Assembly: GCF_026210795.1 (NCBI RefSeq)
Contig: NC_089449.1
Location: 1,798,001-1,862,000, forward strand
Direction of reading: 5' to 3'
DNA length: 64,000 bases
DNA from: Rhizophagus irregularis
Lineage: Eukaryota > Glomeromycota > Glomeromycetes > Glomerales > Glomeraceae
The position numbers were made by a program, and so were the translations under genes. The notes beneath the pieces were generated by a model. The model saw only the letters and a list, made by a program, of their open reading frames with translations. It was not told where the DNA came from and made no database searches. Shown one piece after another: positions 2,187 to 41,234 of the stretch; position 1 is the stretch's first letter, and each line of letters opens with the position of its first letter.

Positions 2187-2867
2187 AGTTTTATCCTTTT
2201 CTGATCACTGGCTGACGAGTTATTCAACAAAATGTTAAACATCGTCATTATAATATTTCTTGATTTACGTTTACTGCGCCATTTAACATTTTGCTAGATT
2301 TCTCGGTACCTAGTGATTGTAAAAAAACGATTTATAGCTCGTTGGAATCGCCTCATCGAGACGAATCGAATGGTGGTAAGCTCATATCTCTGTGATCAAT
2401 ATTGACGGAGTTATTACTTAAAAACCATTTAATATTTTTTAATTTCGGAAATTGATCTAGTGATTGGATTTCGATGTATCTTATACCATTAGATTCGTCT
2501 CATCAAGACGAATCGAATGGTAGTAAGATAGTCTTTCTAGGATCAATATTGGCAGAGTTATTACACAAAAACCATTAATATTTTTTTAATTTTGGAAATT
2601 AATCTAGTGATTGGATTTCGACGTATTTTATACCATTAGAACCGTCTCATCAAGACGAATCGAATGGCGGTAAGATCATCTCTCTACGATTAACATTGGC
2701 GAAGTTACAATACAATAAAGTTTTAAGTATAATTCTGACTAAAATTATGTTAATTTTTGGCCAGAATTATGATATACAAATATAAGAAATTTTTTATATA
2801 GTCACATCTCTTTATAATCACCAAATATGGACTGTCCCAAATGTGTGACTATAAAGAGAGTTGACTG
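2187..2867 (-). mobile_element. TIR DNA transposon copy A, one arm
   Basis: Reading the minus strand from 2867 gives CAGTCAACTCTCTTTATAG, the same end as copies B (23723) and C (27793), next to a TA at 2868-2869. The arm carries the same internal blocks as B in the same order: the terminal TATAGTCAC motifs, a block with GGCCAAAAATTAAC, three 147-bp hairpin repeats, the ATGTTTAACATTTTGTTG block and the CAGTGATCAGAAAAGGATAAAACT region, where LINE-A begins. No transposase is visible. TA duplication and end sequence suggest the Tc1/mariner-pogo group; that is inference. Confidence 0.75.
2310..2720 (-). repeat. 147-bp hairpin satellite, about three units (copy A)
   Basis: The AATGG anchor of each unit falls at 2369, 2516 and 2663, exactly 147 bp apart. 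Each unit has an imperfect palindrome with 15-base arms (ACCATTCGATTCGTC and its partner) around a loop of about 7 bases, followed by a CCAATCACTAGAT block. The same repeat occurs in copies B and C and at 49.5 kb. Confidence 0.85.
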
Positions 2868-20384: not shown

Positions 20385-20552
20385 TTTAGCATTTCGACCT
20401 GTGTTTTACACTATTAGTATCTTTAATTATTAACATATGTCTTACTAAACCCAAATTTCTTTTAAAAATTTTCTTATATATCCTATAGAACCTTGGATAT
20501 CTAATATAAAAGTCATAATGGACTTTTGGCCAAAAACACCTCTTTTTGCTAA

Positions 20553-20704
20553 AACTTAAAAAATCATTTTTTGTAAATATCTTAGCATCTAGTGGTCCAA
20601 TTTTGATAAATATTTTTTTATTTTGGAGCTCTTATTTAGCTCTATAATTTTAAAAAAATCATCAAAATTGGATCACTATATGCCAAAATATTTACAAAAA
20701 ATGA
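20553..20704. repeat. Long inverted repeat, about 50-bp arms
   Basis: The left arm (about 20553-20603) reads through TCATTTTTTGTAAATAT and CCAATTTTGAT; the right arm (about 20652-20704) is its diverged reverse complement. Roughly 45 of 52 positions match by eye. The loop is about 50 bases. It is a foldback/MITE-like structure with no ORF. Confidence 0.7.
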
Positions 20705-20915
20705 TTTTTTGAACTCTTGAAAAATGGGTAAATTTGCCAAAAGTGTGACTTATGACCTGTTTTGGAGATATCTGGGGTTCTTATTTTATATTCCAATTTG
20801 TTGCAAGACACGTTATTTGAAGTTAAGGATATAAATACAATTATTTGGCAAATGTTGCTATAAAAAATATAAAAATGAAAGTTTTATAAACAAAATATTT
20901 ATAAAATTTTTTAAC

Positions 20916-23556: not shown

Positions 23557-23879
23557 ACTCAGCACGAAGTGCTGAATAACTGTTGTATTTGCAATAAGCA
23601 ATATCACTGGTCAAAAACTAATATATTAGATAGCAGATATATATCAGATATGTACCTGATATGTGTAGTATTAATGCTGAAAATCGGGTACCTGATATGT
23701 GTAAGATATGTGTAAATATATACAGTCAACTCTCTTTATAGTCACACATTTGGGACAGTCCATATTTGGTGATTATAAAGAGATGTGACTATATAAAAAA
23801 TTTCTTATATTTGTATATCATAATTCCGGCCAAAAATTAACATAATTTTAGCCAGAATTATACTTAAAACTTTATTGTA

Positions 23880-24445
23880 TCATAACTTCGCCAATATTAA
23901 TTGTAGAGAGATGATCTTACTGCCATTCGATTCGTCTTGATGAGACGGTTCTAATGGTATAAAATACGTCAAAATCCAATCACTAGATTAATTTCCGAAA
24001 TTAAAAAAATATTAATGGTTTTTGTGTAATAACTCTGCCAATATTAATCGTAGAGAGATGATCTTACCGCCATTCGATTCGTCTTGATGAGACGGTTCTA
24101 ATGGTATAAAATACGTCGAAATCCAATCACTAGATTAATTTCCGAAATTAAAAAAATATTAATGGTTTTTGTGTAATAACTCTGTCAATATTGATCCTAG
24201 AAAGACGATCTTACTACCATTCGATTCGTCTTGATGAGACGAATCTAATGGTATAAGATACATCGAAATCCAATCACTAGATCAATTTCCGAAATTAAAA
24301 AATATTAAATGGTTTTTAAGTAATAACTCCGTCAATATTGATCACAGAGAGATGAGCTTACCACCATTCGATTCGTCTCGATGAGGCGATTCCAACAAGC
24401 TATATATCGTCTTTTTACAATCACTAGGTACCGAGAAATCTAGCA
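23880..24445 (+). repeat. 147-bp hairpin satellite, four units (copy B)
   Basis: CCATTCG anchors at 23923, 24070, 24217 and 24364 are exactly 147 bp apart. Units 1 and 2 are nearly identical; units 3 and 4 diverge. Each contains the GATTCGTC/GACGAATC hairpin. Confidence 0.9.
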
Positions 24446-24536
24446 AAATGTTAAATGGCGCAGTAAACGTAAATCAAGAAATATTATAATGCCGATGCTT
24501 AACATTTTGTTGAATAACTCGTCAGTCAGTGATCAG

Positions 24537-24550
24537 AAAAGGATAAAACT
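24537..24550 (+). repeat. 14-bp junction repeat AAAAGGATAAAACT (B, left)
   Basis: First of three exact copies in transposon B (also 25501-25514 and 26510-26523). They flank both SINE units and behave like a target-site duplication used twice. Confidence 0.85.
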
Positions 24551-25500
24551 CCTCATTAAGCCTGAGTATGGTGAGGTCGCAGGTTCAATTCCCATGACCA
24601 CGGAAATAAAAAGAATTTTACTGCGGACGCTACAACCAATAGCGTGAAGGTACAGGGATTAGTGTAGTTGGACTGCATCATGGTGAATTAGTGTGTACGG
24701 TTAGGCCGCACATTTCAACTAAGGGTCATGGTGTCCTTCTAACGTTCCCTATGAGGCCATTGGCATGTGCGCAGTCCTGTCCTTGAGGTCACTACTATAC
24801 CTTGGGGGGGACTTCCTGTCGGGTGGTCACTCTACTGATACCGCTTGGGGTCAGTAATGGCTAGATGGTCGTCCTAGATGGTAAAGCTGAGGGTGCAATG
24901 TCTTAGTGGTAGTTAGACCTTCTGTTAGGTCTTAGACCAACCAAGGTGTTCGTGCACAGAACAGGTAGCATGGCTATGGGGTTCGATTCCCTACTCCTTG
25001 GGATTGCCTAGGTGAAGATCCCCTGGTGGTTGATACCCACCATAAGGGGGTAATCCTGGACAGATGCCTGCTACTTCCTGTCTGAGTGGTCACTATAAAG
25101 TATACCACTTAGGGTAAACAACTGTACTATCGGTACTAGGTAATCGCGGGAGTAGTGGCGCTGAGTGAGGCTTAGTACTAAGCTGGTGGTATGGAATGGG
25201 AAGTCTTAGATGGTTGATGTTACCTGTCGAAAGTCCTCCATGAAAGTAGATGCTCTCTACAAGGTCGTTAAATAAATTGAGTATCAGTATCATGCAATGG
25301 GTATAGGATGAGTAGGCGGCGTGTACCTAGCTTCAGATCAGCCTAAAATGGCCTGATGGGGGATGTCTTCTATAGTGGTGCTGTTACCTGAGGAATTAAG
25401 TACTCGGTATAATGGTTGCCCATTGAAGATGATAGGACACAGACCCGAGATTAGTCTCATAAAAGGCAATGGGTGGTCTGGCCGTAAACGCTTGCAAAAG
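24551..25500 (+). mobile_element. SINE-like unit 1, 5'-truncated
   Basis: About 950 bp, collinear with unit 2 but starting inside the first tRNA-like head (CCTCATTAAGCC). Its first B box is changed to GGTTCAATTCC; the second, GGTTCGATTCC, is at 24980-24990. It ends GCTTGCAAAAG before the next 14-mer. 5' truncation is typical of target-primed reverse transcription. No protein is encoded. Confidence 0.65.
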
Positions 25501-25514
25501 AAAAGGATAAAACT

Positions 25515-26509
25515 AGGGTTGGTCTTGGTCACCCTATCTCGGTGGTTAGTCACTGAGACCCTCATTAAGCCTGAGTATGGTGAGGTCGCAGGTTCGATTC
25601 CCATGACCACGGAAATAAAAAGAATTTTACTGCGGACGCTACAACCAATAGCGTGAAGGTACAGGGATTAGTGTAGTTGGACTGCATCATGGTGAATTAG
25701 TGTGTACGGTTAGGCCGCACATTTCAACTAAAGGTCAGTGTCCCTTCTAACGTTCCCTATGGAGCCATTGGCATGTGCGCAGTCCTGTCCTCGAGGTCAC
25801 TACTATACCTGGGGTTGGGGGGGACTTCCCTGTCTGGGTGGTCACTCCACGATACCACTTGGGGTCAGTAATGGCTAGATGGTCGTCCTAGATGGTAAAG
25901 CTGAGGGTGCAATGTCTTAGTGGTAGTTAGACCTTCTGTTAGGTCTTAGGCCAACCAAGGTGTTCGTGCACAGAACAGGTAGCATGGTTATGGGGTTCGA
26001 TTCCCCACTTCTTGGGTCCTGGTTGGTGATCCCTGGTGGTTGATACCCACCATAAGGGGTGATCCTGGACAGAAGCCTGCTACTTCCTGTCCGAGTGGTC
26101 ACTACATAAGTATACCACTTGGGGTAAACAACTGTACTATCAGGTGCTAGGTAATCGCGGGCTGTAGTGGCCTTTGAGTGAGACCTCGTACCTAAAATGG
26201 TGGTATGGAAGGGTACTAGATGGTTGATGTTACCTGTCGAAAGTCCTCCATGAAAGTAGGTGCTTCTCTAAAGGTCGTAAAATAAATTGAGTACCAGTAT
26301 CATGCAATGGATTAAGGATGAGTAGGCGGCGTGTACCTAGCTTCAGATCAGCCTAAAATGGCTCGATGGGGGATGTCTTCTACATGGTGCTGTTACCTGA
26401 GGAATTAAGTCTCGGTTTAATGGTTGCCTTTATTGAAGATGATAGGACACAGACCCGAGATTAGTCTCATAAGAGGCAATGGGTGGTCTGGCCGTAAACA
26501 ATAGCAAAG
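25515..26509 (+). mobile_element. SINE-like unit 2, full head
   Basis: About 995 bp beginning AGGGTTGGTC, with a tRNA-like head (25526-25609) and a second tRNA-like block with B box GGTTCGATTCC at 25994-26004 and an A-box-like TCTTAGTGGTAGTTAG near 25915. The rest is unique, GC-richer sequence unlike its surroundings, with no ORF of note. It ends in GCAAAG before the 14-mer. A related unit lies on the minus strand at 27847-28865 and a 3' fragment at 40819-40935. Confidence 0.65.
25526..25609 (+). ncRNA. tRNA-like SINE head (class II tRNA-like, pol III boxes)
   Basis: TGGTCA at 25526-25531 pairs with TGACCA at 25604-25609 as an acceptor stem. A D-arm-like CTCGGTGGTTAGTCACTGAG and a perfect B box GGTTCGATTCC (25591-25601) follow at normal tRNA spacing. 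The 84-nt length suits a Leu/Ser-type tRNA, but the anticodon arm is not clear, so this is probably a SINE promoter rather than a working tRNA. Confidence 0.55.
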
Positions 26510-27110
26510 AAAAGGATAAAACTACCACCATTCAATTCGTCTCAGTGAGACGATTCTAACAAGCTATGATACATCTTTGTACGATTATTAGATGCCAAGT
26601 TATTTAATATATTCTTCATATAACTGTGATTATAAACGGTTCTTTTTAATATAAGATTTTTGAGGATAGGTGTGATAGTGACTATAGATAGATTGTGACT
26701 ATATAGGATAGATTTTAATAATAAAGTGTTTTGAACATTCAACTGGTGTGACTATATAGTAGAATGTGACTATAACGGGAGTGACTATAGAGGGAGTTGA
26801 CTGTATATCATATACATATCGGGTACCGATATGTATATGATATGTAAATGATATGTAGATGATATATATATTTACACATATCTTACACATATCGGGTACC
26901 CGATTTTCAGCATTAATACTACACATATCAGGTACATATCTGATATATATCTGCTACCCGATATATTAGTTTTTGACCAGTGATATGATTGGTGGGATTT
27001 ACTGAACACAGCTCAGTAAATTTTACTGATCATATTCTTATTGCAAATACATGTAAGGCACGACAGTGCCGCAGTTATGAGGCACGTGTGTCATATAACT
27101 GTTTTATCGG

Positions 27111-27790: not shown

Positions 27791-27846
27791 TACAGTCAAC
27801 TCTCTTTATAGTCACACATTTGGGACAGTCCATATTTGGTGATTAT

Positions 27847-28865
27847 TTTACAAGTGTATTGTACGTTTAGTGGCCACTACTTTTCGCACCCTCTATTGAA
27901 GGTTATGGAGGTAGGTCGTTCGTATCCTCACCATCATTGAACCACCAGATGTCATCAAGGCCACCTTTTAACCAAGACAACTTATCCAGCACGTCCAACA
28001 TTTAGGCATACCAGGGGACCCGAAGGCACTTTGAATCGGAAGGAAAAACCTTGGCCTCTTCTTGTCGTGCAATCCGTTGCGTGATGCGCAATGCTGGGCT
28101 GCGTATTAAATCCCCTCGCCGCCTTCTTGCTGTCACGAGGAACTTTCGTCAGATAACCTTCGAAACATCACAGACCCCTTCCATACCACCATAATTGAGG
28201 TAAAGATTATCGCTCGAAAGGCCTTCCTACGGCCGCGATTACCCGCGCGATAGTACAGTTGTAATCCCCAGTGGTATCTTTACTTTGTAGTAACCACCTG
28301 AAACGATAAGCTTGTAGGTATTCAGGGATCATCCCTTATGGTGGGTATCAAGCCACCAGGAATCGCCAACCGGGGGCCCATCAGAAGGGAATCGAACCCA
28401 ATCGCCCAAGCTATCTGTCTGCGCACGAACACCTTGCTCCCGGCGACACCTAAGAAGGTCAAACTACCACTAAGACATTGCACCCTCAGCTTTACCATCT
28501 AGGACGACCATCTAGCCATTACTGACCCTAAGCGGTATCGTAGAGTGACCACCCAGACAGGAAGTCCCCCCAAGGTATAGTAGTGACCTCAAGGACAGGG
28601 ACTGCACACATGCCAATGGCCTCATGTAGGAATGTTAAGGACACATGACCCTTAGTTGAAATGTGCGGCCTAACCGTACACACTAATTCACCATGATGCA
28701 GTCCAACTACACTAATCCCTGTACCTTCACGCTATTGGTTGTAGCGTCCGCAGTAAAATTCTTTTTATTTCCGTGGTCGTAGGGAATCGAACCAAGCTCA
28801 GTCACCATACTGGAGGCTTAATGAGGGTCTCAGTGACTAACCACTAAGATAGGGTGACCAACCGT
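27847..28865 (-). mobile_element. SINE-like unit on the minus strand
   Basis: The minus strand starts CGGTTGGTCACCCTATC and contains two B boxes (TTGGTTCGATTCC near 28780 and GGGTTCGATTCC near 28390). Its first 600 bp is homologous to the units at 24551-26509; its 3' third is different and ends CACTTGTAAA. It is flanked by ATATTTGGTGATTAT at 27832-27846 and 28866-28880, a 15-bp target duplication. Confidence 0.65.
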
Positions 28866-29181
28866 ATATTTGGTGATTATGAGCAAACAGTCTTATGACT
28901 TTATCTTTTATTATTAATTTTAAACGAAAAGTACAACAAACAAATCGAACAATATTACAAATATCAAATATAGAAAATAAACATAAAAAATAAAAAGAAC
29001 TAGCTTCACGATTCATACAAGTAAAGAAATCTAAACAAAATAAAATTAAGTAAAGAAAAACTAAACTATTACAGAATACGCATACCCCACTTTACCTGAA
29101 GGCCAGTGGAGGTCCAACTATCCAGCATGTCCTAAGATCCAATCCGTTCTTAAAAGAAATCCTAAAGTAGAGGCTGAACTG

Positions 29182-32100
29182 TTAAGCGGCGCCAAAATCA
29201 AATGTGAAATCCAAGATCCCCCACGGATTATAGAAGAGGAAACCCAAAGAACCCAGGAATCCAAGGAAGCTGTCGCCAAGGAAGGTGTCAAGAGAGTCAA
29301 GAGGAATATTAGTGGAAGGACAAAGAATAGAAGAAGGCCCAAGAGCTGACGATTTCATTTTTTTTGTAATGCCTTGAGCTGATTCCCAATGATGAAAGAA
29401 AACGGAACGGCACAACCAGATTTGGACATAAAGGTCAAAATGAAAGTCGTGCAAAGGTGTATTTAAAATAGACCATATGGTAAGTGAAGAAAAATAATTT
29501 CCAAGGAATTTTGTAAGGGATATCGGTATAAGTCCTCGTGCGAGTCTCAGGCAAGAAAATGAAGGAGGGTCACAATTCCAACAATCAAGAGCCATAAATT
29601 CAGCAACAAAAGAGTCCGGTAAAGGTATTAAAGATGACGTGGAAAGGAATTTGTCAAGATAATTAGTTCGGAGAGCCAATAGAAGTGTTTTAAAAGTATT
29701 TAAAGGGCTAAATTCCGGTAAGATATAAGGACAAGTCCACAAGTGGTCTAAAGTCTCAGGAAAAGAATTACATTGAGGAACAAAGCCAACTCGGATCATA
29801 AAGGTGAGGCTTTCGTCTTTGAAGAGTTGTAAGCGTTGGAAGCATATCTAAAAGTAATTTGATACGGAAACCACAAAACTCAGAACGGCCATTCCGATGG
29901 GAGGCAAATTGCTTATTGTTATTGAGACAAAATTTGGTACAAGCCCAATCAATATCAGAAGTTGAAGAATAGGAATTAAATCTTGGTAATACAGCAAGAG
30001 TCAAAAGACTTTTGGCGTCAAAAATATCTCTAATAAATTTCCGGATATTTATATCCACAGGTAAGGAATTAAATTGTAAAATGCAAGGAGCCATTAATTC
30101 CAATGGTAGACAAGAAGAAAGCTGTGAGTCAAAATGAGCGGCTTTGGCTAATGCATCCACATGATTATTCAAATGATCGTCAGCATGAGCAGGGACCTTA
30201 ATCAAGGTAACATCCAGATTCTTTTGCAACATAATAGTGCGTATGGAGGACCACAAAAGGTGGTTGGATTCTTTAAGCATTCTGGGAATAAAAGGAGCAT
30301 CCACATATAAAGACCATAAAGAAAGTAATTGAGCACAATCAGTGGCGACAGTTATCGAAGAATTCCGAGGGAGGGAGTCTAATCCATGTAATAAAGCAAA
30401 AACTTCTGAACGTAAAGCGAAGGAAAAATGGAAGAAATAATATTATAGTGAGATTCTAAAATAAATCCATCAGGATCTATAGCAGTCCATGCGTAGGCCA
30501 TCGAGGATGTCGGATGACTAGGAGGAGAAAGGAAGGAACCATCAATATAAAGTGTGAGCACCTTAAGAAGGAAGTTGGATATCGGAAGTCCTAGACACTT
30601 GATCAGTTATAGGAGGTAGTTGAACCGGAGCAAAAAGCTGGAATAATAAAAGAGATTTGGCATAGCCTAACGAGGCAGAAAGTGAAACTGAGCGAGTATC
30701 CGCATGTATATAAGTACGTGGTTTCGTAGGATAACGGATCAAACTTGATAACGGAACATGAGAAAAACATCCTTCGGAGGGACATCGTTTAATCAAAGTC
30801 TTAGAAGTAGAGGATCGCGGAATAGCAGAGGCACAACCTTGGCATGCAGTAAAATCAGAAAGCAAGTCATCAACTGAAGACGCAATCCAATGTGAAATAA
30901 GAGCTTCATTACGTGGAGTAGGATAGGTAGTAATCACACGGCCAACAAGAAAAGAGTTAGTATTACGATTAAAAGAAATAGCCCATTGAGGGTTAAACCA
31001 ATAATTTCGACTAACGTCGATAAAAGAAATGGAAGCTACTGTATGAGAAATAGGAATCTTAAATTGCGGTAAAACAAAAAAAGGAAGAAGAATCAGAAAT
31101 AACAATAAAATTAAATAAGAAAGTAAACCAAGCAGGCACAGATCCTTTGTTCGAAACTCGTTTAAGAAAGCGTAAATCTTTCCATGAGAGAAGTCGAGAG
31201 CCACACGGAGAAACCAGTTGGGCAAGAAAACGAGTGCCAAAATTGTTTCGAACATTTTTCATGGAAGTAAATAAATCTTTCGGTAAAATAGACCGGAGTG
31301 GAATCGCCGGACGTAAGTCTTTTCTCGGAGGTCGGAACAATAAAGACCACGTGATATTTAAACGAGAGGAGAACAATAAAGAATTAAATAAAGAATGTGT
31401 TCGCAAGGAAAAGGTATGGGACCATGGTTCCAGATCAATAGTAGAAGGGCAGGCATCACAGTCCAAAAAACCTTGGAGATAAGTAATCATATAATTAGCA
31501 AATAGCTTATATGAAGGGTGAGAGAAAATTTTCTGCCATGAAGCCACATGGGATGATAGAAATCGACCAAACGCTTGTTGAATAGAGAAAGGCAACAGAG
31601 TGAAAAGCGCGGAAAGAGGAGTGACTGAGGCCAAACCAGCCTTCTGTCGAATAAGAGAAAGCATTGGAGAAACCATGCGATTAATGGTAGATTCTGCAAA
31701 TAATGTGGTTTGTAGGCGAAATTCTAGCCGCGGAAGTAGGACAACGTTATAAAGGTAAGCTACATGTTGTGCTAAAAGTTTTTTAGGACTGAGTAGAGCT
31801 GCCATGTCATTAACCATGGAGACAGTTTGGTTATGAACAAAACGAGAAGAAGCTGAAAGGTTAAACCAAACACCTAAAAACCGAAAAGATGTAGATAAGG
31901 CTAACGCCATTAAAGTAAGAGTAGGATGCAGAATTAAAGAGGAAGAAGAAAGATCAAATTCTATAGTTTGTGAAAATTGTTCAGAAGAAAGAAGGATATA
32001 TTTTGCTGAATTTGCTTGAGTATTATTTAAAGTATAAAATTCAGCAGTAATGGAAAGGCGATCTTCAATTCCTCGTTTGGATGAGGCAATTAAAGTAGAA

Positions 32101-34622
32101 TCATCCATAAATGTAATATGTGAAACAGGAAGATTGTGTTGTTCATATTCAATTGGAGAATAATCCAATAATGCAGAAGATTTCAAGATAAAGGGATCAC
32201 AAGCTTCTCGATTAAGTGTAGTAAGCAAAGGATCCAAATAAATAACCCATAATAATGGAGAAATAATTTCACCCTGGTCAATACCAATTCTAACTCTGTA
32301 TCCAGAAGTATTACCATAATGGGTAATAATTTTATTATTACGTCTTGTAAAAAGATTAATGATAAATTTAATCAATAAAGAAGGTATATGTAGACAAATT
32401 AAAGCCAATCTAAGCATATTCAAATCAATTGAGTCAAAGGCCTTGGAAATGTCTTGAGAAACAATCCATAATTCTTGGTCATCAGTTTTGTCAAATCGTC
32501 GTTGATGAATAATAGCATCAAGCATCTTAATAGGGATGTCAGTGGAACCGCCTGGCAAACCAGCAAAATTACCACCTTGGAGCACTTGGTTGTCAGCTAG
32601 GATTTTTGAAAGACGAGTTGTAACGACCTTAACCACACATTTTCGTACAGTTTCCAACAAAGTGATAGGTCGCGTATTCTTTAATTGTGCGTCAAATTCA
32701 TGAGGTTTTGGAATGGGATAAACAAGCGCTTCACGCCAATCAGCAGGAATATCTCCATGAATGAGGCAAGCGTTGGCTAGTACAAGGGACAAATTAAAAG
32801 CTTCTCCAGTTAAATGTTTGAGCATCTCATAAGAGATCTTGGAAGGACCAGAGGCTTTATTGTTAGGCATAGAGTTAATAGTATTTTTCCATTCATCGGT
32901 CAGAATAGGAGACATAACCGAAGTATATAAGGACGAATCAAAGTCAGAAAGAGGAGTATATGCTCTTTGCCAACGCGGAGGAAATAAATCAGTGGAAGAA
33001 TACTGGACCAAAGGAGGAGTAACAACCGATTGGAAATGTTTAATAGCAGCTTGTTTGATATCTGAAGGATCAGTAAGTAATGTGGGTTTGGAGTCAATAA
33101 CAACTAAAACTCTATCAAGGACGATAGAACGATGTTCCACTGATAGGGCTGAAGAAATAAAAGAGCCCGGAGATGTAGAGAAATGTTCATCTCTAAGAGC
33201 AGTATAATATTCAATGGAATCTACCCGATGCTGATGAAATTGTGTGGAAAGATAAGCTGAGACCAAAGCTTTTTGTGAACGCAAAAATTTGACAAAAGTA
33301 GGAAGTGGTGTTGTACTATAAGAAGGTATAGTATAATCTTTTAAAAGAGACTTAAGGAGGATTAATTGAGTGGGTAAAGAATTAATCATTTGTGAAATTT
33401 GAGCAGGACGACTAGGCCTAGAAGTGGTCAATTTGAACAATAATCTATCCAAAAATTTGTTGATAGCAATAAGCATTGTAAGTTCTGGAGAATATTTATG
33501 GTGATGAGTATTGGATACATGTTGGAATGGTAGAGAATCAATGGCACCGCCAAGAATAGAACGTTTAAGAGCATGCCAAAGTTTGTCCAATAAAAGAGCT
33601 GAAAGTGAAGATACTGAAGGATGATGTGTGGTCAAATACAACTCAAGACGCGAGTTCACTTCAATAGAAAATTTGTCCCAAGTATCATCTTTCAAATTTT
33701 TGTAGAGAAAAATGGTGCGTTGTTCGCTTTTTTGTTTTAATCTAGCTTTGGCTAAAGTAGCGAAACAAGAACTAAAATCAAAAGCCGTTATAAGTACACG
33801 GTGATCAGTAAATTGATTATCATTCAACTTAGGACAAGTTTCAACATGAGAGAAAAGACCAGGAGCGGGAAAGCCAGGGGATGACCAAATATAATCAAGT
33901 CTTGAAGAACCATTCTGATGATAAAAAGTGGGACTAGGACCTGAAATTGAAGAAATATGGGATTGATGATCCGTGAAATATCGAGAAGAAAGTGATCGTA
34001 AAATTTTTAAATGATGTTGAGGAAGATGTGAATGTGAAATTTCATCTGCATTAAAATCGCCAAGGATGACTACGTGATAGTTATTAGAGCGGGCTTTATC
34101 AAGCCATAAATTAAGTTGGGCAAAAATAGCATCACGTTCTTTATAATGAATAGAGTGATAAGGAGGAAGGTAAACAGAAATAATAGAAATTTTTGTTTGA
34201 TGGAAGAAAAGATCTAATTTTAATAAACGACCTTTCCAAGGATCGATCTTCTGAACATGTTTATGTAAAGGATGGCGAAGCAAAAGACCAACACCATCAT
34301 GTGGTCGTGAATTACAAGGGGAAGGAGCCCAATAGGACTTAAAATTATATAAGGAATGTTCATTTTGATAAATAAATTTAGCACCAGAAGAAGTAAGGCG
34401 AGTATCATTTAAGGATAAAACGCCAAAGGAGGAATGGAGAAAATAATTTAACAAATGCAGTTGTCGAACAGGAGAACACAAACCATTGACATTGATTTGT
34501 CCAAAATTAATAAGGGGGGAAGAAGGAGAAGAGAGATTATTAGAATTATTAAAATTAGGTATCGCACTATTAGGGGGGTGAAATCCCTGTGATACACCCG
34601 ATATAAATTGGTGTTCAATCAT
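29182..34622 (-). pseudogene. LINE ORF2: APE endonuclease, reverse transcriptase, RNase H
   Basis: The likely start is the ATG at 34622, in ATGATTGA, overlapping the ORF1 stop, an arrangement for re-initiation. The endonuclease follows: GQINVNGL near 34490, VILGDFNAD near 34050, SRLDYIW near 33895 and TDHRVL near 33800. The RT has DISKAFDSI near 32440 (motif A), GIDQGEIISPLLW near 32270 (motif B) and FMDDS near 32105 (motif C). The first frame is open to 31059. Frame changes then occur near 31.1 kb, 30.56 kb, 30.43 kb and 29.79 kb. Past them lie a CQGC zinc-like motif (30840), RNase H residues (YIDGS near 30545, RSEV near 30405, ATDC near 30345, HADDHLNNHVD near 30165) and a C-terminal zinc motif (QCN, then HLWTC). 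The enzyme would nick the target and reverse-transcribe LINE RNA; this copy cannot make it whole. Confidence 0.85.
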
Positions 34623-36733
34623 TAGAAGGGGAGGGTTTTGAAGGAGAGAAGGAGTCCAATTTTTCCATAATCGAACCAAGTTGGGCAGAAAGATTCTTTT
34701 GTGTATTAGTAACATTAAAGATTTCTGATTGCAAACGAGAAGCGTTAGCATCGGGGGTGGTATTAATAGGTCGGGAGACAGGTAAGGGGACATGTCGTCT
34801 TGATAGGATTGAGCTAGAGTCCAGGGCTGAGAAGGAAGCATCAGGAGAGACGTCCATAAGAGAAGAAGAGATATTGGGGGGAAGATTGAATCCAGAATTC
34901 GCGTCTTGGGGTGGAATATCATCCCATCCATGACTATAGGAATGAGTTTCTTGATCGTTATGAGGTGGGTACAAATCTGAGTCACCGGGATTACCGCTAT
35001 CATAATTCATCATTGATTCAAGCTCGGAAATTCTATAATCATGATTCGTGATAGTATCCTGCATCCAGGAAACAGTTTCGTCATGAGATTTAAGGGTAGT
35101 AGCAATCTCTTTAATCTGCGCCTTTAATTCATCAATAATATGTTGAGGAAGCATAGGGGCAGGATTGTCCGATGGAGAAGTAGGTGATGTAGAATTGACA
35201 GAATGAGGTTTGTGTGGAGGTCGAGTAGAACCGGAGGAATTTTTATTGTTCCTACGATTATTAGGATTAGTATTGTTCCGGTTGATATTTTGAGAAGTAT
35301 TGGAACGAGAAGTGTCAGAAGTATTATTGTTGTTGTTGGAACGGGATGAAGAGGAATTATTATTGCGGGATCTAGAGTTGGAACGTGATCTTGAACGGGA
35401 AGTGGAATTGTCACGTGATTGGCGCGAATCCTGACGACCACGTCTAGGTCCAGCATTAAAACGAGAATAAAGTTTGTTAAGGCGATCGTCCACTTCCGAG
35501 TAGGACGTGGATTACATGCAGAGGGAGAACAACCAGGACGCCCACAAACATGGCATAAAGTTTGTGCTTCATTGGGAGGGTGCCATGTTAATCCTTTGCC
35601 GCGGAAAGCCACGGTCATTTCTTTGGCAGCTTCAAGGGATTCAAATGAGGAGAAATTCAAATATACATAAGGTTTAGGTTTGTAGGAATTGATAGACAAA
35701 GGGATGTTAAGGGCCTTAGCGTTGACTTGAGTAGCGATTTCTAACAGATCAGCTTCTTTAATATTCTTAGGGATGCCGGCAAGGATAGCAACATGTTCTC
35801 TGCGGTTATCGCGTTGGGATTTCGAAAAAGATGCCGGGCAGACACGTAAAGAATTACCAAGGCAAATGATCGCCCAAATGTCATTAAATTGGGTAACTGC
35901 ATCCGTGGAAGAAAACTGGATATGACCATTATAATAATGTTTTCGAGGTGAAGTTTGCACTTAATAACAGCGCCATATCTGGAAAATGCTTGACGGACTT
36001 CAGTCTCAGTTAGGAAAAGCGGGATATCATGACGAACAACGACTTCATCTCATCACTGAGTTTGGCATCTGCAGGGGAGTAATGCATAAAGACCAAATCA
36101 AGGAGATCGGCACGTGGGGAACTGACACAATCGGTATAATCATGCTGATCATTAAAGAAGACAAGGATCTTTTTGTTATCGCCTGATCCTTCGCAACGTG
36201 CACGAGCGCCATAAGAAGAGTAACGGGAGAGTGAACAATCTACTTCGTCACACATGGAGCGATTGGTAGTGAATTTAGCTTTGAACGCGTCAGGGCGCGT
36301 CGCGTAAATATGCCGCAGCATAGTAACGAGATGGAGCGGATTTTATAGCGGCAGCATTACCATCGGGGGATGGTCGTCGTTCTGGAATATCAAAGGCGAC
36401 AGCTTTGCCTTTACCACTGGTGGTAGAGGGAGCATGAATAGAAGCGTCAACAGTTTCAACAGGAGTGGTAGTATTTTGAGGAGATGTAAGCACTTGGACT
36501 TTGTTGACCGGAAGACCTGAGGGAGTGGTAGAAATAAGGTTGGGAGCTGAAGCAGAAGGTGAAGTTATATCAACATTCATAGCGTCATCAGAGACAACGC
36601 GTGAACGTTTGTTGGGCGCGCCAGCGGTACTAGTGGGAGATAAAGGTCGGTCTCCAGAGGGAGTAGAAACAACAGGACGCGGTGGCGGCGGAATATCCGG
36701 GTTAATAACAGAAGGAGCTGGAGTTGTAGACAT
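34615..36733 (-). pseudogene. LINE ORF1: RRM, zinc knuckle, SR/N-rich tail
   Basis: Starts at the ATG at 36733 (MSTTPAPSVINPD) and ends at the TGA at 34615-34617. A proline/serine/threonine-rich first 130 residues is followed by a cysteine-containing block (MCDEVDCSLS near 36250), an RRM-like domain (HYYNGHIQFSSTDAVTQFN near 35920), a C-x2-C-x3-G-C-x4-C knuckle (CHVCGRPGCSPSAC near 35540), an SR/N-rich stretch (near 35330-35420) and a hydrophilic tail with coiled-coil character. Frames change near 36.30, 36.0 and 35.5 kb. By family, the product binds LINE RNA. The copies at 1-2052 and 60.9-62.66 kb support the reading. Confidence 0.75.
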
Positions 36734-36890
36734 AGTTTAGAGCTCAGTAAAGAGGAAAGCAACTGTGGAAATATTAATATTTTGAACGAGCACTTAGAAA
36801 TTTTCGAACGAAAATTTCAAAAATAAATTTTATTAGTATTTTCAAAAATTCAGGAAAGAGTTGCGATGATCCTCTATATTTGGTGATTAT

Positions 36891-37497
36891 AAAGAGATGT
36901 GACTATATAAAAAATTTCTTATATTTGTATATCATAATTCCGGCCAAAAATTAACATAATTTTAGCTAGAATTATACTTAAAACTTTATTGTATCGTAAC
37001 TTCGCCAATATTAATCGTAGAGAGATGGTCTTACCGCCATTCGATTAGTCTTGATGAGACAGTTCTAATGGTATAAAATACGTCGAAATCCAATCACTAG
37101 ATTAATTTCTGAAATTAAAAAAATATTAATGGTTTTTGTGTAATAACTCTGTCAATATTGATCCTAGAAAGACGATCTTACTACCATTCGATTCGTCTTG
37201 ATGAGACGAATCTAATGGTATAAGATACATCCAATCACTAGATCAATTTCCGAAATTAAAAAATATTAAATGGTTTTTAACTAATAACTCCGTCAATATT
37301 GATCACAGAGAGATGATCTTACCACCATTCGATTCGTCTCGATGAGGCGATTCCAACGAGCTATAAATCGTCTTTTTACAATCACTAGGTACCGAGAAAT
37401 CTAGCAAAATGTTAAATGACGCAGTAAACGTAAATCAAGAAATATTATAATGCTGATGTTTAACATTTTGTTAAATAACTCGTCAGCCAGTGATCGG
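36891..37497 (+). repeat. Transposon C left arm with 147-bp satellite
   Basis: CCATTCG anchors at 37037 and 37184 are 147 bp apart; the next, at 37325, is 141 bp away because six bases are missing next to CCAATCACTAG. One unit fewer than in copy B. The arm ends at the 14-mer at 37498-37511. Confidence 0.85.
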
Positions 37498-37629
37498 AAA
37501 AGGATAAAACTTTAAAAACTCTCTCCCGTTGCCCTCACGACAATATTTACAAAAAAAATAAAATAATTTTTTTCAAAGTTTTTTATTACTTTTTCTTTTA
37601 TTTTATCCTTCCTATTCTTTTTCAGGCCT

Positions 37630-40033
37630 ATGGCCTCTTCTCACGACTTCTCAACTTTGAGTTGGGATGAAGTTCTTTCTAAACTTCGCGAAGTTGAGGA
37701 CTTTTGCGCTAAGTGCGCCCTTAAACAAGAAACTCTTTTTGCTCGTTTCAACTCTCTTCCTGACAACTCTTCCGCCAAGTCACGTGCTTACCTCGCTTTT
37801 GGCCCCCTCCGCCTACTAGACGACTCTCTTTCTTTCTGAACAAAAACGCCTTTTACACTTGCGCTTGGACTCTCTTTCATTTACTGCAGATTCAGAAAAG
37901 GATTTCGCTATCCCCCTGTTGACGATCATCCATCACATGATGATCCAATAATTGATAATCTACCTTCTCTTCCATTAGCTATTTGGGCTTCTAAACACGA
38001 GGCTGATCCCAATATCATCTTAGATTTATGTACCCCTTCTACACGACGCACCAATCGTTTATGCCCTTCACAGCGTACTCCTAAATTTCTTTGTAAACGC
38101 GTATCCTCTATGATTTCCCCTGCATCCTTTAAGTGCGCACAGAAAATTAAGACAAAATTGTCTTTTACGCGTCTGGTTTTATCCCCTTCTACTATACGTT
38201 TATTGGTTCCACCTTTATCATGTCCTTCCGAACCTAAAAGTCCCTTTCAAAATACATTCCCAGACTCCTCTCTCATTACTCCCCGAATTTCAGCTTTAGA
38301 AGATATCGCTGATTATGACCATAACGTCCCTTCTCCGGTCCTTTCTTTAAATAGTACACCCGCGGGATTTTTACTGGCAACTTCTACTTCAGCCCCCCTC
38401 CTTCATGATAATGTACAGTGTTCATCTTACACTTTCACTATACGTACCATCCTGGATGGATGGATACGTCCTGCTCGAAATATTGGCTCTAACCGTTTAT
38501 ATTCTATTCGCCGTGGCAACTGTTACTTTCTTTTGGACTCCACTCCTGATTCGGATAATTGTTATTCAATTCATACCAATTCTCCTCTCCTTTCAACTAC
38601 TGATCCATTTCAATTTATATCTGACCGTCCTTCTCCTAACTTGAAATTTATTTTATCAAAATTTTTAACCTTTTTCTTTTACCGACAAAACCGTATTCCC
38701 TCCCATGCTTGACGTAAATATTTTAATAGGTTACGCCAGCTTTATTAACACAACGTGTTACCTCTCTTGCCCGTTGGTCATCTTCTCATCGTAATAATAG
38801 ACGTACTTGTACCTTTATTCAATTTCAATATCATCAATCTTGCTTTTACCTTGGCCTTTATTTTGGTTGCCCGTTTTGCAAGACTCCTGCTGCCTATGTT
38901 ATGTCTCAATTTCGTCATGCTTGTCATATTCATGACAGGAAACTTGTTCACACTCCTTCCCCTCCTCCTTCCCCTCCTTTCACTTTACCTTGTAATCGTA
39001 TGTCCAAAAGACACGCTGATGGTTTTTATAAAGATGTAACTTCCCGACGCCTAGGAGTTTCCTACCACAAATCCTATGCTTTCCATCATGTTCTTGAGGA
39101 TGACAGTGGTTTACTTTCTGCCTGAACTCTTATCTCATATTCTGCTCACAAGTCTATCTCCCACCCTACGAAGAAACAACTTGCCCGTCAAGTACGCCAT
39201 AAAGACCTTTTATCAGACCGGAGCAAATTTTCACGACATGTTGTTCACCCTGATCTTCTTGACTCTTCTATGTGGATGGCCACTAAGGATCATGCTATAG
39301 TCATTCCTCCTACCTCCTATAATTTGACTATATCTACTACTGATTACTCTATTGTCCAGAATATACGTAATCTTGTATCCTCGCATCCTGACGTTTCCTT
39401 CTGTTTGAAAGAACGTTCACCTCACTCTTCAGTTGCGTTTGTATCTTCTAAGTTTACGGGTTCTATCCAAAAAGTGGTTTTGAATCCCTCTTCTGTAGTT
39501 GCAAGCCATTGTTTTGAATCCCTCTTCTGTAGTTGCAAGCCATTGTTTTGAATCCTTCTTCTGTAGTTGCAAGCCATTTCATTACTGACAAACCCATGTC
39601 TGGTCCTTTTGTTGGTCTGAACTGCCCTGTTATTGATTATCAAAATTTCAAAACTCTTGGCTTTAGTCGTTCCATTATTGATATGGTCCGAAGGATACTC
39701 TCGAATAGTGCTTCCATTTATGTACCTTCTCACAATTTCCTCTGGTTATTAATTTCCAAGCACAACACTTCCTCGGTATCAAAGAAGTTTCTTTGCGATG
39801 CCATCCAATCTGTTATCACCAAATCGGCTTCCTCTTCGACATTTTCACATCTTTGGAATAGTGATACAAGGTTTTCTTTCAAACTAGGTCGTGTTAAACC
39901 TTGTGATATCTTAATGTTATTGGATGTTTGTGCACCTTGGTTTGATTCACATCCTTACCCTGCTTCTTCCGATTTCCGAACACCGTGGGATTTACCCGCT
40001 GATTTTGTTCATCCCATTTTTCTAATGCGCTAA
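37630..40033 (+). pseudogene. Chimera ORF, C2H2-finger protein of unknown function
   Basis: The first ATG (37630, MASSHDFSTLSWDEVLSKL) opens a helical N-terminus; the frame breaks near 37820, 38.70 kb, 39.12 kb and 39.48 kb, but the pieces read on in neighbouring frames. A clear C2H2 motif, C-x2-C-x12-H-x4-H (CPFCKTPAAYVMSQFRHACH), lies at about 38872-38935. The C-terminal part (SGPFVGLNCPVIDYQNF to the stop at 40033) is globular-looking. It does not resemble RT, endonuclease or ORF1. By position it could be an RNA-binding partner, but I do not recognise the family. Confidence 0.55.
39478..39581 (+). repeat. 34-bp tandem triplication inside the chimera ORF
   Basis: TGAATCC starts at 39481, 39515 and 39549, 34 bp apart; the units are nearly identical and encode LNPSSVVASH in changing frames. 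The two extra units add 68 bp, not a multiple of three, and so shift the reading frame. Confidence 0.9.
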
Positions 40034-40818
40034 TTGCGCTGGTTTCTTATTAATTAATTACTTTCCTTTAATTATTCTCTTTTTTTCACCTCTTTCATGC
40101 TTATTTTAAGCTTTCCTATTTCCCTTCCTCTTTCTTTATGAATACAAATTTTATCATTCTGTATCGGAAATTTATATACAGCGCTTTAGCGATTGATGAA
40201 TTTACTCTATTGAATTACAAAATTTTACAACATTTTATGTCAGCCAGAATTTACACATAAAACTTCGGTTAAAGATTAATTCGACTAGCTTGCTAGTGAA
40301 ATGTTCTTTTCCATGCTTAGGAAGAGTCGCAGGGTATCTCGGCTGCTTCCAAAATACGTGGCCCATCTATAAATTCTTCTCCTAATGCTACTTCTCCACA
40401 ACAACACAATTCTTCTTTGGCGTCAGTTTCTCAGGATTCCTGGATTTTTTGGATATCCTCTTCTATAATTCGGGGTGGATCTTGGATCTCGCACTTGGAT
40501 TTTCTGCACCGCTTAACAGTTCAACCTCTTAGGATTTCTTTCTGGTAACAGACTGGATTTTTGGATGTTGGATAGTTGACTCACACTGGCCTTCGGGTAA
40601 AGTTGGGGTATGCGATTCTGTAATAGTACAGTTTTTCTTTGCTTAAATTTTATTTTAGTTTAGATTTCTTTACTTGTATGAGTTGTGAAGCTACTCTTTT
40701 TATTTTTTATTAGTTTATTTTCTTATTTTTGTAATATTGTTCGATTATGTTTTCGAAACTTAAAATATAAATAAAAGATAAAGTCATAAGACTGTTTATA
40801 CAGGAAAAGGATAAAACT

Positions 40819-40935
40819 TTACCTGAGGAATTAAGTACTCGGTATAATGGTTGTCCATTGAAGATAATAGGACACAGACCTGAGATTAGTCTCATAAGAG
40901 GCAATGGGTGGTCTGGCCGTAAACACTTGCAAAGG
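40819..40935 (+). mobile_element. 3' fragment of the SINE-like unit
   Basis: Homologous to the last 117 bp of the units in copy B (GAGGAATTAAGTACTCGG to CTTGCAAAGG) and flanked by AAAAGGATAAAACT at 40805-40818 and 40936-40949. A strongly 5'-truncated insertion. Confidence 0.75.
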
Positions 40936-41234
40936 AAAAGGATAAAACTACCACCATTCGATTCGTCTCAGTGAGACGATTCTAACAAGCTATGATACAT
41001 CTTTGTACGATTATTAGATGCCAAGTTATTTAATATATTCTTTATATAACTGTGATTATAAACGGTTCTTTTTAATATAAGATTTTTGAGGATAAGTGTG
41101 ATAGTGACTATAGATAGATTGTGACTATATAGGATAGATTTTAATAAGAACATTCAACTGGTGTGACTATATAGTAGAATGTGACTATAACAGGAGTGAC
41201 TATAGAGAGAGTTGACTGTATTAGGTGCGCCAAG

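Follow-up and report, generated by a model that had tools for sequence, protein, structure and literature searches.

Tx1L and Tx2L of Xenopus laevis are LINEs that insert at one site inside DNA transposons and generate a target duplication, and a DNA-transposon target is a feature of some members of the Tx1 clade. R1, SART and TRAS are further site-specific LINEs of the APE type. We analysed a window of 64,000 bp from Rhizophagus irregularis (C21:1798001-1862000), together with the whole assembly of 146,748,485 bp on 32 contigs. Like Tx1L and Tx2L, the elements found here include an APE-type LINE at a single site within a DNA transposon, with a target duplication. The Tx1-clade feature is also present, as the target has terminal inverted repeats (TIRs) and TA flanks. 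Unlike in the Xenopus case, there are two sister LINEs at two sites of one MITE, each with a SINE-like partner; there are also arrays, a third site, an apparently fungal host, a weak RNase H match and a duplication of about 16 bp. We consider it very probable that this is a site-specific family of APE-type LINEs whose target is a non-autonomous TIR transposon and which inserts through target-primed reverse transcription.

PMC4640811 provides two further comparisons. Keno and other APE LINEs of the Tx1 and R1 clades share with this system the sequence-specific insertion, the multicopy target and the APE endonuclease, but the target here is a transposon and not an RNA gene or a telomere repeat. 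Utopia, inserted in U2 genes, resembles it in occasional tandem insertion at one target, although Utopia has a restriction-like endonuclease and a gene target. That LINEs can target other transposons is known in principle (PMC8869645). According to PMC3747384, the partners in LINE/SINE pairs have a 3′ tail in common or, in the case of L1, poly(A). The present elements resemble these stringent and relaxed pairs in that a short non-autonomous partner would be moved by a LINE; they differ in that neither a common 3′ tail nor poly(A) was found between the partners, the target being the link observed. For R. irregularis, the families L1-Tx1, L1-R1 and I are listed in PMC11075540, without a tie to the present copies. 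PMC11075540 and PMC8647823 both describe LINE families of this species, and the term "target site" is absent from their main texts. Among the titles and starts of abstracts listed, no report of this system was found.

The host of the first target site (site 1) is a TA-flanked TIR transposon of about 961 bp, a MITE that we take to be Tc1/mariner-like; the insert-free reference copy (L026) has 961 bp. In the loci read, there were 26 TIR-to-TIR rows from 25 places, one of which was found on both strands. TA stood on both flanks at 24 of the 25 places, the exception being L029 with CA/TA. Eleven of the 26 rows measured 959-962 bp; the rest were longer, owing to inserts or to additional repeats within the MITE. 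By TIR search and mapping, two copies were delimited on the plus strand of the window. MITE copy 1 (23723..26803), flanked by TA, begins with CAGTCAACTCTC at 23723 and finishes with GAGTTGACTG at 26803. MITE copy 2 (27793..41218) extends over 13,426 bp because neither site 1 nor site 2 is empty; four insertions are distributed over the two. Within the MITE, 147-bp tandem repeats were seen (window 23872-24427), the number of which varies between copies (L037 has several more), and site 1 resembles a diverged last unit of these repeats.

The original prediction placed exact copies of the 14-mer AAAAGGATAAAACT at 24537, 25501 and 26510, and a pattern search found all three. Further exact copies start in the window at 2187 (minus strand), 37498, 40805 and 40936. 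With up to two mismatches there are 11 matches in the window, a number reached by none of 100 shuffles. The two SINE-like units predicted between the three sites do share their orientation and are 91.8% identical; unit 2 has 995 bp and unit 1 has 950 bp, without the first 45 bp. The transposon arms also proved to be as described: the left one ends with CAGTGATCAG plus the 14-mer, and the right one restarts with ACCACCATTC. As for the predicted 14-bp duplication, the duplication held, whereas its length had to be revised to about 16 bp, with two extra bases on the left. On the plus strand of MITE copy 1, the order is therefore the left copy of the duplication (AG plus the 14-mer; 24535..24550), unit 1 with its 5′ truncation of 45 bp (24551..25498, by segment comparison), the middle copy (25499..25514), the full unit 2, or SINE1 (25515..26507), in which the B-box string GGTTCGATTCC occurs exactly at positions 77 and 480 of the unit, and the right copy (26508..26523). 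The three site copies were defined by pattern search and allele comparison. Site 1 of MITE copy 2, also on the plus strand, holds a mixed array: the left copy (GG plus the 14-mer; 37496..37511, allele comparison), an element of about 3.3 kb that we call passenger B (37512..40802, BLAST comparison), the middle copy (40803..40818), a strongly 5′-truncated SINE1 (40819..40933, segment survey) and the right copy (40934..40949). A third MITE has its site 1 at 2187..2202 on the minus strand; the adjoining LINE1 (7,842 bp) runs left, beyond the window, into locus L009.

The idea that a transposon site is reused as a landing pad for retroelements could be examined in the whole assembly, where pattern counts for repeats may understate the true number. 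The exact 14-mer occurs 827 times, versus 19 for a reversed-pattern control. The original prediction had proposed a search for empty sites with a single 14-mer; allowing up to three mismatches, 240 were counted genome-wide (reversed control 0), and 19 empty sites were confirmed by reading the sequence of retrieved loci. Left arms of site 1 numbered 422 at the same threshold (reversed control 0), and since the two patterns differ, 422 minus 240 is not the exact number of filled sites. On contig C1, where each exact 14-mer was read in sequence, 41 of the 42 belong to an empty site or mark the border of an insertion; the remaining one (C1:2655628) is unrelated.

The 14-mer adjoins hundreds of SINE1 and LINE1 3′ ends, as would be expected if it were a 3′ tail belonging to the elements themselves. 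However, it stands alone in the 240 uninterrupted sites, it adjoins unrelated element types, and LINE2, which has a similar 3′ end, runs into another sequence. The bases next to it provided a further contrast. The two bases preceding the 14-mer differ between MITEs (GG, GC, GT or AG). At those filled sites whose left arm could be read, the base just before later copies of the 14-mer was compared with that of the left copy: G was followed by G in 30 cases, C by C in 3, T by T in 2 and G by A in 2 (n = 37). Thus the host allele was matched in 35 of 37 cases, and in 5 of 5 with the informative C or T hosts. One base further out, it was matched in 32 of 37, and in 4 of 5 with A hosts. As the neighbouring base tracks the host allele, the repeats represent a true target duplication and not an element tail. 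Empty sites and allele copying rule out the tail, to which we give practically no probability; the same two observations support the landing pad. Nor is the 14-mer a part of the SINE, the reading against which the original prediction had been set, as it adjoins LINE, passenger and SINE 3′ ends alike. In alignments with the empty MITE, seven clean site-1 rows overlapped by 14, 15, 15, 16, 16, 16 and 20 bp. Together with the tracking of host bases, these overlaps indicate that the 14-mer is duplicated target of about 16 bp, which fits the 10-20 bp given as the usual duplication length of APE LINEs in PMC6895275.

The contents of filled sites, which the original prediction had also proposed to tabulate, were surveyed in 37 segments, which came from 21 of 45 sources; a segment of L011 (plus strand) proved to be false, leaving 36. 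Three kinds of insert were found, namely SINE1 (about 1 kb), LINE1 (up to 7,837 bp) and passenger B (3.15-3.29 kb). No other LINE was present at site 1 among the 36 valid segments, in which L020 has an uncovered stretch of 244 bp. The inserts examined at site 1 have fixed 3′ ends, varying 5′ truncation and a single orientation. In the same 21 of 45 sources, SINE1 starts at positions 11, 46, 675, 840, 875, 879 and 925, and LINE1 at 1, 5447, 6496, 7321 and 7395. Genome-wide, with up to three mismatches, there are 249 site-1 junctions of SINE1 and 136 of LINE1-type ends (LINE1 or B), and none in the reversed controls.

Arrays at site 1 contain up to five elements, with LINE, passenger and SINE in mixed order. 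Such arrays could have arisen by unequal crossing-over, and one filled MITE could have been multiplied by MITE transposition, so that there would have been few independent insertions. Tandem units in one orientation are expected in that case too, and the MITE is multicopy. Against it, the segments examined show twelve different 5′ starts (7 of SINE1, 5 of LINE1) and the three kinds of element occur in mixed orders. Moreover, the two SINEs of the window are 8% apart, whereas the first differs by 3.8% from a copy that lies on a different contig. We therefore regard few insertions and later multiplication as quite improbable, and growth of the arrays by new insertion as the better reading.

LINE1 in L024 matches RVT_1 (1.6e-16, above the Pfam cut-off), RNase H (0.0019) and Exo_endo_phos (0.011), the latter two below the cut-off, and the domains lie in separate broken frames. 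Broken frames were found in the LINE copies inspected, and this counts against our preferred explanation. In passenger B, the first ~85 bp and the last ~500 bp are LINE1-like and enclose an unrelated middle of 2.7 kb, and this structure is common to three copies (window 37512-40802, L011 and L012). The middle has open stretches of up to 429 codons (in the L011 copy); two stretches from the window were tested and gave no Pfam match. At the 5′ ends of several full-length LINE1 or B copies (L011, L012, L017, L024, L040 and window 2187), extra AAAACT-like pieces of target were seen, which would be expected if the end of the cDNA realigns with the target.

SINE1 and SINE2 contain two exact B-box strings each, and their A-box matches are not distinctive. 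ARAGORN detected no tRNA gene in the window, and Rfam no tRNA in 20000-42000 and no RNA in the SINE. The Rfam rows near 26816-26906 were rejected as miRNA models that scored below threshold and had matched an AT-rich palindrome. In L016 (minus strand), a foreign insertion of about 3.45 kb with inverted ends (GGGGCGTGCCAGAAATCAGCTGATTT..) lies within a SINE1 segment of 4,439 bp. It has an open stretch of 657 codons and lies beside the second B-box string of the SINE, the overlap being 7 bp.

The second target, ATAATCACCAAATAT, is found at 27832, 28866 and 36876 of the window, on the minus strand and in the orientation opposite to site 1; within this same MITE family its position is subterminal. 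It is empty in MITE copy 1 (23762..23776, minus strand, by pattern search). In MITE copy 2, all on the minus strand, the 3′-most copy of site 2 (27832..27846) follows SINE2 (27847..28865; 1,019 bp), the first ~730 bp of which are SINE1-like (83%) and the tail of which is different. A further copy (28866..28880) lies between SINE2 and LINE2, a sister of LINE1 with 7,995 bp (28881..36875), and the 5′-most copy is at 36876..36890. The main open stretch of LINE2 ORF2 (31059..35003, minus strand) encodes 1,314 aa, and the frames downstream are broken. Its endonuclease (about 33801-34499; Exo_endo_phos, 1.9e-12) and reverse transcriptase (about 31866-32714; RVT_1, 5.8e-17) both exceed the Pfam cut-off, and the best PDB relatives of the 1,314-aa frame are L1 ORF2p and R2. 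At the DNA level, LINE1 and LINE2 are 71% identical over 3.3 kb and 81% identical in the final ~400 bp; the main segment of 464 residues around the reverse transcriptase has 78% amino-acid identity. With up to three mismatches, the genome contains 499 left arms and 395 uninterrupted copies of site 2, with 130 LINE2 and 74 SINE2 junctions; all the reversed controls gave 0. Among 100 matches listed, a LINE2 junction spacing of 7.9-8.0 kb was found 8 times, consistent with head-to-tail full-length LINEs.

A third target lies on the other MITE strand. It reads GTAAAAAGACGATT in L007, where it is filled by SINE1, and in L043, where it is filled by SINE1 twice in tandem; in MITE copy 1 it reads GTAAAAAGACGATA and is empty (24405..24418, minus strand). 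Genome-wide, 16 SINE1 junctions are at site 3 versus 249 at site 1. When the reference MITE was compared with the 17 nt around the inferred nick of site 1, the best match after site 1 itself was the neighbourhood of site 3 (12/17), with runner-up places at 11/17, just one match below. Mapping of the insertion rows on the MITE (n = 15) placed 11 at site 1, two at site 2 and two at site 3, where L005 and L006 are the same place and the left edges of L006, L007, L019, L020 and the first row of the window are blurred by internal repeats.

The 3′ ends of the elements were also surveyed. Of the exact LINE 3′ ends, 143 of 183 run exactly into a merged site-1/site-2 pattern, and with up to three mismatches at least 88 among 100 matches listed are at a site. 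A strict audit of tails in the loci read placed LINE1-type tails at site 1 (15 of 15), LINE2 and SINE2 tails at site 2 (3 of 3 each), and SINE1 tails at site 1 (25) or site 3 (2). None of these 48 tails was outside the three sites or at the wrong site. The loci had been picked nearly all via the 14-mer, so that the share of site 1 in them is biased upward; the absence of other contexts among the tails is nevertheless informative. A looser search returned 61 tails, three of them SINE1 at site 3 and the rest at sites 1 or 2. A loose regular expression gave four matches in reversed orientation, which were 5′ ends of insertions read backwards, and 26 cross-site matches, which we ascribed to tails differing by few letters; the strict audit had none.

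As all three sites are in one transposon, the MITE might be recognised via chromatin or a DNA-bound host factor and not by sequence. However, the borders are base-exact, and site 3, on the other strand, is similar to site 1. The paralogous repeats that the MITE contains a few hundred bp from site 1 adjoin no tail: tails were found at 0 of 147 candidate places, which include some unrelated look-alikes outside MITEs, versus 19 of 39 at site 1. Recognition of this kind is thus hardly credible, and we prefer recognition of sequence.

Under target-primed reverse transcription, the ORF2 protein of LINE1 would nick the bottom strand of site 1 (..TCCTTTTCC^GATCACTG..) and prime reverse transcription there. 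The second strand would be cut about 16 bp away, after AAAACT, and this distance would account for the target duplication. LINE1 may copy its own RNA and also, in trans, two others, one from the SINE-like unit and one from passenger B with its LINE ends. Each insertion would leave a full site on the left and a duplicated core on the right; the site thus regenerated would permit further insertions and hence mixed arrays. LINE2, together with SINE2, would act likewise on the opposite MITE strand at site 2. The upstream context that sites 1 and 3 have in common persists in the left copy of site 1, which is thus where new insertions are expected to enter. The order of SINE divergence was mixed, and the predicted leftward growth was not clearly seen.

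SINE1 and SINE2 have ~730 bp in common (83%) and differ in the last ~260-290 bp, and the tail sorts with the site. BLAST aligned SINE1 with LINE1 over no more than 16 bp, and at E 1e-4 it detected no similarity between SINE2 and the LINEs. The SINE units lack poly(A) and end with GCAAA or GTAAA. The search for an RNA structure common to SINE and LINE tails was negative, as the four tails folded no better than shuffles (z from -0.12 to -1.33). Between the tails of SINE1 and SINE2 there is one weak match of 25 bp, equalled by 4 of 300 shuffles. That the SINE tails are unlike either LINE tail would suit a different, unseen LINE as the mover of the SINE-like units, with LINE1 and LINE2 sharing the target by descent or convergence. 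SINE1 is also inserted at site 3, where no LINE tail was found in the loci read. Nevertheless, the 36 segments examined at site 1 are all SINE1, LINE1 or B and the edges of the duplication are identical, so we think such a LINE unlikely, although it has a better chance than the other alternatives. The 3′ module of a SINE may tentatively be viewed as an address label: the choice of template would depend either on a match between tail and protein that does not involve sequence homology or on pairing between the nicked target and read-through target sequence in the RNA. This view is based on the DNA read, in which each SINE tail is only at its own site or sites and the LINE tails are alike. If read-through pairing with the nicked target is true, the landing pad itself would be the label common to the partners.

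What is new here is the apparent fungal host, the two sister LINE/SINE pairs on one MITE, and SINE tails that are unlike the LINE tails yet sort with the target. With two sister enzymes and two sites in one small transposon, nature has in effect set up an experiment on how APE-type LINEs choose their targets; empty and filled copies number in the hundreds, the paralogous repeats are untouched and there is one off-target. In this setting, the sequence code of the endonuclease and the rule for SINE partners are directly testable. The MITE would be a self-regenerating docking platform on which retroelements could multiply without hitting genes.

Two inverted repeats were observed outside the MITE copies. 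One of 122 nt (97%), at window 23601-23722 and 26865-26986, brackets MITE copy 1, which therefore seems to be nested in a further inverted-repeat element. The other, of 87 nt with a 7-nt spacer and 79% complementarity, is located at window 20544-20724.
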